Assembly: GCF_040807025.1 (NCBI RefSeq)
Contig: NC_090952.1
Span: 5,968,001 to 6,032,000 of the forward strand
Direction of reading: 5' to 3'
Length of the DNA: 64,000 bases
Source: Struthio camelus
Lineage: Eukaryota; Chordata; Aves; Struthioniformes; Struthionidae
Shown here: positions 1-34,134 of the stretch, piece by piece
Layout of the letters: every line of letters begins with the position of its first letter
Position numbering within the stretch: position 1 is the stretch's first letter
Program-made: the position numbers and the translations under genes
The notes under the pieces: generated by a model
The model's input: only the letters and a program-made list of their open reading frames with translations
Told to the model about the DNA's origin: nothing
Databases searched by the model: none

Positions 1-83
1 TGAGTGACGTGACTTTGGAGAAAGTCGGGCGGCATGTAACAGCAGCTACTAAACCAGGCAATCCAACAACATTTCCTTGCCAG

Positions 84-3000
84 TTCAATTGTCACCACGC
101 TGCTGGCACTCATGGATGGCTTAGACAGCAGAGGCGAGGTCGTGGTCATCGGCGCCACCAACAGGCCAGACTCCCTGGATCCTGCTTTGCGAAGGCCTGG
201 CCGCTTTGACAGGGAGTTCCTTTTCACCTTGCCAAACAGACAGGTAAGGCTCTTCCAGCAACCTTCCTGCTACGGTGCCAAGGCCTCTCTTTACAAGAAC
301 ACCCTGTTGCCACACACTGTCTCCGAGAGGGAGGAAGCAAAGAGGTGCCCTACGTGCTGGAGACCTCCCTGTTCCCCGAGCAGAACTGGGAGGGAGGCTG
401 CAAACAGGAGTTTCACGGAGCCTGGAGCACACGGGCTTTCTTCCTCGCCCAAGCGGTTGCGCTTGGCTTCGTTCCTTAGTCCACCCAGGCCCTTGCCTCC
501 TGAAGTTGCCTCCTCGCTCTCACTCCTCCACTTGGGAGAAGCTTAGGTGAAAGCTTGTGCTTGAGTGTGGCCGCGCTGGGAATCCTGGGAGCCGCCCAGG
601 AGCCTTTAGGGAGCTGCCATTGTAACTGGTCTGAGCAGGCAGCTGGATGGAGACGGGAAGGACACTGCCCAGATGCAACACTGGGGAAGCTTTCTAGTGG
701 CAAGGCTTGGGACGCTTGCAGTTCTTTGGCAACATCCAAGCAGGGACCACAGAGCTACAGAGCAACCAGAAGTAACTGTTTCCTTTAGAAAATAGAAACT
801 CCAGGAGAAAGTGGAGCCCCGGCTTTGGTGCTTTCTTTCCTTTTCTTTTTTTTTTTTTTTTCCCCCCCCTCTTGGCTATCCCAGATTCTTTTTTCTTGAG
901 TTAGCGTGTGGGGAGCGGAGAGGAAGGAGAAACACATTATTGGATCGAAGGCTCGTAACAATGCACAACACAGTAAGAAAACAGGAAAGAAACAGGAAAA
1001 CAGGAAAGAAACAGGAAACACTTCCCTGAATCTCTGGCAAAGGTCGGAGATGAGCATAGGCACAGCTTGACGTTTGCTCGTTCAGGGGTAGAGGTTTGAG
1101 TCAGAATTATTGTTTCTCCTACTGTAGTTACTCCTCCTACCTACTGGGGAAGTACTGAGCTTCGAGAAGCAGGCAGTGTGTTACTAGAATGCACACATTT
1201 CTTAACTTTAGCAGAGGAAGACAAGCAAGTACGGGAATGTGACAGTGGGGCTTTTGCGGATGTTTCTTTTGTTTCTGAGAAAAAGGTTGCAGACAAGCCC
1301 AAATGTAACCATCTGGCTTGTAGGCTCGCAAAGAGATTTTCAGGATCCACACGAGAGGCTGGAGCCCAAAGCCATCGGACACGCTGCTTGAAGAGCTGGC
1401 TGAAACATGTGTCGGTAAGATGAAAAAGCGCTCCGAGTTCCTGCCTCTGACTGGGTCCTGACAGCGTCTGAGCTTGTGCCAGGCAGTAGCCAAGCTCCCG
1501 AGCCTTCCCTTCCCTTGTCTCTCACCACACGGGAGGCTGTGCCTCCCAGAACGGAGCGTCCCTTGGCAAAGCCTGTCCTTGGCTCCTCTGAGCTGCCTGA
1601 GACTGACGGACCTTTTGCTTCTGCTCTGCTGAATTAGGATACTGTGGGGCCGACATTCAAGCCCTCTGCGCTGAAGCTGCCCTCTGCGCTCTCCATCGCC
1701 ACTATCCCCACATCTACACCAGCAGTCAGAAGCTGCAGATCAACGTGGCTTCCATTGAGATCACTGCAACCGATTTTGTGCTGGCTATGCAGAAGACTGC
1801 ACCAGCTTCACAGAGGGCCGTGGCTTCCCCCGGGCAACCACTCCCACCCGCCTCCAAGCCACTGCTTCAGAACACGCTAGAGAGGCTCCTAAAAGGCGTG
1901 CAGAGGGTATTTCCCCACGCAGCCCTTGCACTCCAGAAGCACCAACAGCCAGGTAGGGCCGTTACGTTCACTGCCGTCAGCCTCTCCCAAAGCAAACCCT
2001 GCTAGTTTGCGCCAACAACAGAAAGAAACCCTTGCGGCAGGCGGAGGGTAAATGGAATGAACGGTAGAGAGGGCAGAGCTGGGAACTCCTCCCGGTTCAC
2101 AGCAAGGGAACTATGCGTTCTCCACTGAAGCAGCCAGCTTCTGGAGGTTGTCAGCATCATCTTTCCTGGGGTTTGGCACTGATTTAAGGCTTGAAAGAGG
2201 AGGCAATATGAGGGAGTGTTAGGCCGTGCCCTTCCCTTCCTTTCCACACTGGGAGTGTGGGCTCCCGCTGCAGAAAGAAGTGGCCTTGCTGGCTGCTTTA
2301 GGTGTCCAGGAACTGCGGAAGGGCTTCCTGCTTGTCCTCTAGCTGTACTGTAAGGAGAAGAGGAGTTTTTGCCACCAGTAAAACATAGCTTAGGCAAAGG
2401 CAGACAGTTTGGGGGAAATGGCATTATTCCGTGTATGCCCAGGCAGTGAAGACATACAAGGCAGTGGGTTTCAGCCCTCAGTTAGAAGCTGGCTTAGTGC
2501 AAGGGAGGGCTGCAGACCTTCAGGAGAGTTAACAAGCCTCTCTTACCTTCTCACGGTACCAATCCTTCTGTAGAAAACGCCTGCATGGAGAGTGAGGAGG
2601 CATCACCTTCTGGACAGCAAAAGGAAACCTTCCTCCACTTTAACAGGTTGTTAAACTGCCCGCGACCTTTTGAGTGAAATGCTTCTGATTGATTGCTGGG
2701 GCTTTCCCAAGTGTCTTGGCGGTTGCAGGTGGGAGGGGTGGTAGATGAGGGAGGAAAGAAGACCTTGCCCAGGGTGTCTGGTATCCAAAACTGCAAGAAG
2801 CAAGCACAGAGATAGAACTAGGTGCTACAGTTGTAAGAAAGCAAGGAGCTGCAGCCGATCAAGCTGAAGGGGGCAGCCTCCTTTTCCTCCCCCAAAGACA
2901 TCCACAGACATTAGGGCATGCTGCCCTAATTTCATGCACGCTATTCCTCAAGGAGAGTTGCACTTGCAACCTAGGAGACAGCACCCAAGGACAGATGAAA

Positions 3001-32102: not shown

Positions 32103-32108
32103 AATAAA
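32103..32108 (+). promoter_or_regulatory. Poly(A) signal of gene C
   Basis: AATAAA lies 36 bases after the TAA stop of gene C (32065-32067), in the same context as in the other copies. Confidence 0.8.
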
Positions 32109-34134
32109 GCTCATGTCAATCCTTTGAAGGTGTCTTCCTGGCTGTTTTGCTATTGTTGCTCCTTCAGAAGCCTCGCAGTGCTGTTCAGAGGCCCCTCTTG
32201 CACCCCTCCATCCCATTCCCCCTCTTTCTTCCTCCTTGATCCCCTGCCCCACACATTGCTTACTCCGTTCTGCACGGGTCCACTACCCCCCGTGAACAAC
32301 CCCAAATCCTCAGGACTCCTCATCACTTGCAAAGCCCAGGTTATCCCTCTCCCAGACTATGCCTGTAGTGGCCTCAGGGCCAGGTAAGTAGAGACTGGAG
32401 GCTTTTGGCCTTTGCCCTTGTCTGTTCTCCCTCGCCTGTCAGGTTCAGGTCTCTGTGGAGTTTTCTTCTCACTTGCCCCTTGGTCCTCGATCAGGTAACC
32501 TTAATGAAGCAGAGGCTCTCGCCAGCCACAAACCCTCCCAACGTCTCCCCAGCACTCTCCTGCTCGCCCCCTCCCCATGTTCCCCCAGCAACAAGGCTCA
32601 GCACCTTCTCCACAAAGGCACCTCAACGCACACGCGCGCACTGCACACACGCCCCAGTGCTCTCCTGAGGAAAAAAAAAAAAAAAGCCCCTCGAGTGGTT
32701 ATGTGTGGAAAAGACGAGGCATTGGCCAGGTGATGCTTCCAGGTAGCACCAGCGTGCGGAGGGCACAAGTAGGAAGGGGGTGCTGCCGAGCGTGCCCTTT
32801 GCAAGTGAACAAGCTCTTTCCTGAGCAGCTCTTGCTCCTTTCATTGAAGAGGCCAATTTCTGCTCTGCCAAGCAGAGAGAGGTTGACATCTCGGACACTT
32901 TGCCATGGCCTTCCCCCAGGCTTCGGACACCTCTGTACCACATACACGCAAGCGAGCGCTTCTTTGTCCCACTCCCGTTGCACTTGGGTGAGCAGAGGCA
33001 CACGGACAGGAAGGTGACAGAAGGCTTGCCTACACATGGACCTGTCTTTGGTGGATGTTCTCCTCCCGAGCTGCGTGAATATGCTCTCCTGCAGAGACAC
33101 GGGCATGCTTACACAACTCTCCGGCTCCGGAAGAGGCACCGGCGCCCTGAGCGGGCTGCCTTCCTGGGCTGTTGAAGCCAGGGGCTCTCGGCAGCCTTTC
33201 TGTCCCTGTTGGCTTTCTTGGGCTGCGCAGTCGTGTGCCTTGCAACCGCCTCGGTTGCCCCCTTGGCATCCTCCAGGCTCCTTTGGGCACCCTCAGATCC
33301 CTTCTCCAGGCACGCTCACGTGCTCTCTGCCCCTCTGCCTGTGCTCAGATCCCCTCTCTTCCCCTCATGCATGCTCAAGTCTCCTCTGGTCCTCTCCCTG
33401 CAGCCTCCCAGTCCTTCCATTTCCCTCTGCGAAGCACCTCCTCCACGGGGAACCCAAGCAGTGTGAGGGCGCTGCGAGTATTGTAGGCTGTGTGCGAGCA
33501 TCACATTTTTCTTCTGCAAAATGAGTGACTTTGGACTGAAAATGGGGATTTCGGCTCATGAGGATCACATTTTTCAACCCTCCCCCCTCCCCCAAATTAG
33601 CACCCACCCCAAGCCCACTATTCCCAGTGGATGTCCCTAATGCAGAGGCTTTTTAGTGCCGAGGGAAAGAAATGACCATTGCCAAAAAGGGTTTGGGTTC
33701 TGCTTTGTTTTTCTTTTATTTTTCCCAGGCTTTGACACTGTTGGGACACATTCCTGGTGCATTTGTCTGAACGCAGTTCTCAGGGTGAGAGAGCAAACCC
33801 CTCTGCTGCTTCACTAGGCTCGGCCAGCTCCATGCTCGTGGCCTAGGGAAGCAACAGCTAGGGCTCGGCCCTTCCTGCCCACAAGATCACTGAGGGCAGT
33901 CACAGTCTTCCTCTGTGTTCATTCGGTTGCTCCCTTAGGCCTGCCTTCCTCAGCAGAGCCTCTCCTTGCCAGCAGGTGTAGCCCAGCATCCCCGAGGTGG
34001 GGACATGGCAGGGCTGGAAGGCCTGAGGGGAGCCCCAGCCTGGGGAAGCCCTCCTGTGGCTGCGCCTGCCCCCTGGAGGCCTCGGGGAGTGGGCAGGGAG
34101 GTGGGGGCATCTCCCCTAAAGTGCCCCAGGCAGC
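32109..34134. other. 3' flank of gene C up to the array break
   Basis: Same content as the other flanks (open stretch at 32900-33175). It ends abruptly at the junction with the 31-bp minisatellite. Confidence 0.5.

Follow-up and report, generated by a model that had tools for sequence, protein, structure and literature searches.

Does the ATAD2-like gene that recurs in near-identical 13-kb units in this part of the ostrich (Struthio camelus) genome belong to a functional, amplified family, or is its multiplication a by-product of the repeated DNA in which it lies? The window, i.e. the whole stretch of 64,000 nucleotides analysed here, is G000:C11:5968001-6032000 of an assembly of 1.45 Gb in 262 contigs, which are designated by C-numbers throughout. 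The 13-kb unit is probably the repeat of a functional gene family amplified in tandem, and this family looks like one which evolves in concert.

The repeated unit and its gene

Self-alignment revealed that positions 1-34142 are made up of 2.6 units, arranged head to tail on the plus strand: unit A (1..13008; 13,008 bp), whose phase is fixed by the window edge, unit B (13009..26002; 12,994 bp) and the partial unit C (26003..34142), where the array ends, 8 bp beyond the end given in an earlier note on this DNA. Positions 1-21147 and 13009-34142 share 99.887% identity over 21,148 columns (mismatches, 9; gap openings, 5); between 1-8140 and 26003-34142 identity reaches 99.94%. Unit lengths differ by T and G homopolymers and by 10-bp slippage of the CTGCT type. 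The near-identical, head-to-tail, ATAD2-like units described in the earlier note are confirmed both by self-alignment (99.89%) and by homology search, and the length differences to which it had drawn attention are present. Its contention that the units are not a simple assembly duplication agrees with the finding of different private variants in different units.

Two complete gene copies are contained in the window, at 9185..18871 (+; copy 1) and 22181..31866 (+; copy 2), and differ by 2 synonymous substitutions. Both follow a model of 20 exons, forming a single open frame of 832 residues, ATAD2-like and without a bromodomain; 18 of the 19 introns have GT-AG borders and one, after position 18146, is GC-AG. 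In copy 1, the 5' exons N1-N7 span 9185-11157, the exons for the first AAA module (AAA1) 11390-14959, those for the second (AAA2) 16382-17854 and the C-terminal exons 18003-18871, all on the plus strand; the model is less certain for the 5' exons and for the position at which the last exon ends. According to the same model, one copy ends in unit A, which holds its 3' part (E8 onward, ~84-5864), and the following copy begins there with its 5' part. Six other open reading frames (ORFs) of the unit have no Pfam match; in another scan two of ten ORFs gave weak matches below curated cut-offs (GhoS, DUF2448), which were taken as chance.

The best solved relative of the protein is human ATAD2, 8h3h (phmmer, E 6.8e-249), which itself carries an E-to-Q change in Walker B. 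Pfam comparison of the spliced 832-residue protein detected AAA (2.2e-47, two stretches) and AAA_lid_3, and no bromodomain. The AAA1 motifs align with those of human ATAD2: Walker A, GPPGTGKT, at 12190; Walker B, FFDEID, at ~12673; and a ten-residue arginine-finger motif at ~13198. The second AAA module is degenerate: aligned with that of 8h3h, E12-E14 have GEPGYGQ where Walker A would stand. For the human protein, PMC10539301 describes an AAA2 without nucleotide and R586 and R589 as arginine fingers. An ATAD2-type C-terminal segment is also present in the unit (tblastn exon match); the exon order there is an exon containing a specific 17-residue stretch, then a basic exon, then the C-terminal exon.

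The earlier note had taken the amplified gene for ATAD2, normally present in single copy, and this identification does not hold. A tblastn search with a human bromodomain as query matched three exons in C2 and none in the unit, C8 or the C5 pieces. The C2 locus, found once, is taken as ATAD2 because bromodomain exons, AAA exons and the C-terminus are all there (the N-terminus lies outside the sequence examined). Since the bromodomain was not found in the amplified gene, this is considered a separate paralog, and amplification of ATAD2 itself was ruled out. By its sequence, the paralog is derived from ATAD2. Identity to the ATAD2 of the same genome amounts to 154/178 residues in the AAA1 core, 97/133 in the lid and 116/168 in AAA2, and a five-row protein tree groups C2 and human ATAD2 apart from C8 and from both types of array copies, described below. 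Three related N-terminal copies of an exon with the motif YxLRxRK occur in each of the unit, C5 and C8; one was found in C2, at the very edge of the sequence examined, and the ATAD2 total may be higher.

Single diverged relatives are located one each on C2, C8 and C3. The C8 locus (~800069-819696) is the relic of an ATAD2-like gene without bromodomain, present once; its Walker A is altered (GPQGTGKT), and it has a 6-residue loss, an apparent frameshift in the exon of the second region of homology (SRH) and a stop in the C-terminal exon. As the bromodomain is absent from both array types and from C8, its loss is older than the split between the types. The C3 relative is a putative ATAD2B, named from one exon and from synteny.

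Copies across the genome and their integrity

Gene copies were counted through the AAA lid exon; 126 of 511 candidates were scored, so that all counts are lower bounds, and copy numbers are taken from the assembly, not from read depth. At least 62 near-identical copies were detected. Nineteen, referred to as type 1, are on C11 (10 on the plus and 9 on the minus strand), and 43 form a sister type, type 2, on C5 and small contigs. The array of the window (array 1) runs on beyond the left window edge, as had been anticipated, and extends from C11:5870268 to 6002142, i.e. ~10.1 units. A second C11 array of ~8.8 units, in opposite orientation, lies ~0.9 Mb from it (C11:4839287-4953487), and one of its copies fits the 20-exon model with two synonymous differences. 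A further reverse-oriented piece of the unit (C11:4967210-4969800), for which no lid exon is listed, contains the 3' end of the gene and adjoins the third copy of the flank block described in the next section. C5 carries 16 type 2 copies, 14 in tandem at 4.287-4.457 Mb and two inverted; the small contigs hold 27 of the 43, distributed among C45 (5), C65 (1), C151 (9) and C224 (12), which are presumably unplaced. On the plus strand of C5, the final type 2 copy (within C5:4445001-4461000) is without the exons from Walker A to SRH, and an inverted copy (C5:4467300-4469000) is located within ~10 kb of it, at a rearranged array edge. In type 2, the last two coding exons are fused by a ~260-bp deletion; by eye, the frame is open.

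With unit B as reference, ~10 kb was compared at each of eight loci in array 1, and 0-6 substitutions were found per locus. Divergence is higher at the left edge of the array (9 in 6.7 kb) and in two pieces of the inverted array (9 and 13 in 10 kb). Across 10 kb no difference separates units 7 and 9, while unit 8, which lies between them, is distinct. The inverted array contains private variants, together with rare variants held in common with particular array 1 units (1589T with 1742T, unit 6). This pattern fits unequal exchange, combined with conversion across the inverted arrays or else with a recent duplication of the arrays. GC content at third codon positions is 0.58 and 0.57 in the arrays, 0.45 in C8 and 0.34 in ATAD2; the high array values fit GC-biased gene conversion, to which regional base composition could add. 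The suggestion that a chromatin-ATPase gene was recently amplified and its copies homogenised is supported.

The two types were compared by using one sequence per type, that of type 2 being composed of two joined half-copies; the splice-site check covered each of the 20 exons of type 1 and, in type 2, exons E5-E14. Over E5-E15, type 1 (C11) and type 2 (C5) differ at 92 of 1655 exonic positions (5.6%) versus 415 of 4055 intronic ones (10.2%; Fisher p 6e-9), with zero exonic indels. Synonymous divergence (dS) is 0.121 and nonsynonymous divergence (dN) 0.038, for a dN/dS of 0.32, and the exonic differences fall on first, second and third codon positions in 31, 14 and 47 cases. When the changes are polarised with the C2 ATAD2, synonymous and nonsynonymous ones number 23/24 for type 1 and 18/22 for type 2, with 3 ambiguous; relative to a neutral share of 0.27, the synonymous excess has binomial p values of 9e-4 and 9e-3 respectively. 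Polarisation with C8 instead gives 20/20 and 13/14, with 8 ambiguous. These sequence comparisons support purifying selection on both types since their separation.

Comparison of 26 type 1 pieces, some overlapping, with unit B revealed no exonic indel and 5 distinct exonic variants, 4 synonymous and 1 changing Ala to Thr (p 0.02). The lid exon is stop-free in 62/62 listed copies. A stop in an early-sampled C5 copy had suggested that type 2 might be a pseudogene family; this was ruled out by a genome-wide pattern search, in which the affected AAA1 codon is intact at 60 of 61 places. Upstream of the gene, the kilobase at 8100..9100 (+), a candidate promoter region, differs at 58/914 positions between types, below intron divergence (Fisher p 2e-4), and in the region 3' of the gene divergence between types is above that of introns, at 17-28%.

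Satellite surroundings and chromosome placement

The features that follow the array in the window are reported without strand. A flank block of 8.7 kb (34143..42850), defined by Tandem Repeats Finder (TRF) and genome search, borders the array and starts with a decayed 31-bp minisatellite (~34245-35729; TRF). A genome search in which 15 of 4269 candidates were scored detected copies of the block at C11:4830602 and 4958521 (99%) and at C5:5949143 (93%), with less similar relatives on C5 and C11. No gene was recognised by eye among the flank ORFs, of which no family-library search was made. From 42862 to 64000 the window consists of a satellite with a period of 20 bp (40/80 bp), which TRF follows as far as 63988 and which runs past the window edge. 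Higher-order structure is found within 42862-63988, where one 80-mer occurs 10 times in the window.

The extent of the satellite was evaluated from forty 600-base samples, which contained it at C11 4.5-6.15 Mb (11/11), at C5 6.2-14 Mb (6/6) and in one C11 patch at 3.0 Mb; the other 22 of 40 were without satellite. On C11, two pieces of 8 kb, at 5.3 and 5.7 Mb, consist of satellite from end to end. The C11 arrays thus lie inside a ~1.7-Mb block of the satellite found in the window; the C5 gene arrays are outside the satellite block, ~1.4 Mb from the first satellite 40-mer. An exact satellite 81-mer gave 41 matches, 38 on C11 and 3 on C5, and none on any other contig. The 40-mer occurs 1434 times and, among the matches listed, the first is on C5 (with none on C1-C4, if these are contig-ordered). 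Diverged variants of the satellite are possible elsewhere. The idea of a general centromeric satellite is weakened by the restriction of the exact 81-mer to C5 and C11 and by the 40-mer matches. By eye, satellite orientation in the samples flips together with gene-array orientation between ~4.970 and 4.975 Mb on C11, and genes and satellite would therefore form one giant inverted arrangement. No other C11 sample is as uniform as the patch at C11:3000001-3000600, which is perfectly regular (lag-20 identity 1.00) and is possibly a young or active satellite core.

The link to a sex chromosome, on which the earlier note had speculated, was rejected: the arrays occupy C11, C5 and small contigs, and Z/W-like markers lie on C41/C40. 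Three DM-domain matches, read as DMRT1/2/3, fall within ~0.1 Mb on C41; two more are on C8 and none on C40. HINT1 and a HINT2-like gene are found on both C40 and C41, with near-equal spacing. On the basis of the DM-domain cluster and the HINT pattern, C41 is probably Z-like and C40 a large, little-degenerated W, and the C11 and C5 arrays would therefore be autosomal. C40, over 57 Mb in size, resembles a barely degenerated W, having the HINT spacing of C41 and no DM-domain match; a large, little-degenerated W is described as the ratite pattern in PMC11036779.

Competing explanations and known systems

If the family is functional, its protein would form a hexamer like those of ATAD2, Abo1 and Yta7, threading H3-H4 with ATP and without acetyl-lysine steering; alternatively, it may enter ATAD2 rings as a subunit and reduce the number of their bromodomains. 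Copy number would have been raised and kept since a high dose is useful, most plausibly in the germline or early embryo. Homogenisation would proceed by unequal exchange and (GC-biased) gene conversion, aided by the repeat-rich satellite setting and the inverted layout.

Several observations weigh against such a function. For an AAA core, a dN/dS of 0.32 means relaxed constraint. Type 2 includes broken copies, one with a stop and one, on C5, without the Walker A to SRH exons; relative to type 1, type 2 also has in-frame indels in N2 and N4 and the ~260-bp deletion that affects its final two exons. In a protein-level match, the score of one copy in array 1 is reduced by about one residue around E6, and the placing of the 5' exons, like that of the last exon's end, is based only on splice consensus and homology. 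The position in a megabase satellite block, usually a site of silent heterochromatin, is a further point. As to the protein, the bromodomain and AAA1 of human ATAD2 make up the histone-binding face (PMC10539301), and the bromodomain tier of Yta7, the yeast ATAD2, helps nucleosome recognition (PMC9898759). In PMC13050212, a Yta7 construct without bromodomain and C-terminus shows no Cse4 binding, as does one which retains the bromodomain and the full N-terminus and lacks the C-terminus alone. Because of the human binding face and of the Yta7 construct results, histone handling by the amplified protein is uncertain.

A passive origin is a real possibility, although not a probable one. The gene would have been caught in a pericentromeric segmental duplication and satellite expansion, and its copy number would be functionless; perhaps one or few copies are, or once were, selected, with conversion spreading their intact sequence. 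This would suit the location of the C11 arrays inside the satellite block, the flank blocks in common with C5 and the homogenisation of array 1, where conversion could carry intact sequence along. It is opposed by the prevalence of synonymous variants within the array (4/5), by the rarity of the stop and the uniformly open lid exon, and by the location of the C5 genes outside the satellite block.

A conflict linked to the centromere is unlikely. Here an amplified ATAD2-type chaperone and the satellite would constitute a linked system, biasing the chromatin or transmission of C5 and C11, the two chromosome-sized array-bearing contigs and the only ones with the exact 81-mer (3/41 and 38/41). It is doubtful that the bromodomain-free chaperone was amplified in or near a two-chromosome satellite because it acts on that chromatin, loading or removing H3/CENP-A nucleosomes. 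Just as doubtful is the idea that the linked genes and satellite boost their own centromere strength, or suppress a driving satellite, and have spread between chromosomes. Yta7 is required for proper CENP-A deposition, according to PMC13050212, which favours this explanation; the construct without bromodomain and C-terminus, which does not bind Cse4, argues against it, as do the distance of the C5 genes from the satellite and the doubtful role of the satellite as a centromere.

An assembly artefact, in which one or few units were multiplied by the assembler, is very improbable: the 27 type 2 copies on four small contigs do indicate an incomplete or redundant assembly and make the true type 2 number uncertain, but units carry private substitutions and indels, the arrays on C11 differ in their starting phase (6250 and 10879) and the types are 10% apart in introns. 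Hardly more credible is a pseudogene array, for which the decayed C8 copy and the C5 copy with a stop might be invoked, but which is contradicted by splice sites, purifying selection and a gene having 19 introns and an open frame, instead of no introns or a disrupted frame.

A functional family amplified in tandem thus remains the favoured explanation. ATAD2-type chaperones are usually regarded as low-copy, and their bromodomain is a much-studied drug target. Titles and abstracts in the examined part of the literature on ATAD2 with birds, avian paralogs or ratites mention no such family. If the explanation is correct, about sixty copies of a bromodomain-free, motor-conserved form of ATAD2 would amount to a natural experiment, both on the action of an AAA ring without reader and on the way in which autosomal tandem arrays raise the dose of a chromatin gene. 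The association with a satellite detected until now on these two chromosomes only would provide a concrete, testable case of gene-satellite co-evolution in a bird.

Among known systems, the AAA+ bromodomain histone chaperones, i.e. vertebrate ATAD2 and ATAD2B, Abo1 and Yta7, share with the amplified gene the tandem AAA modules, intact AAA1 motifs, a degenerate AAA2 and a conserved C-terminal segment; unlike them, it has no bromodomain, three YxLRxRK exons and at least 62 copies. The ampliconic families of sex chromosomes, such as those of the primate Y, are similar in their many near-identical coding copies, in the tandem and inverted layout and in the probable exchange between arms. Multiple coding copies more than 99% identical, one of the traits by which such families are recognised, are found in type 1 and, at the exon level, in type 2; the arrays described here differ in being located on two autosome-like contigs, together with a satellite. 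A third comparison is with tandem gene arrays that evolve in concert, for example rDNA or histone clusters: near identity within a type and divergence between types are common to both, but here the repeated element is a 20-exon gene of regulator type, rather than one for a bulk product.

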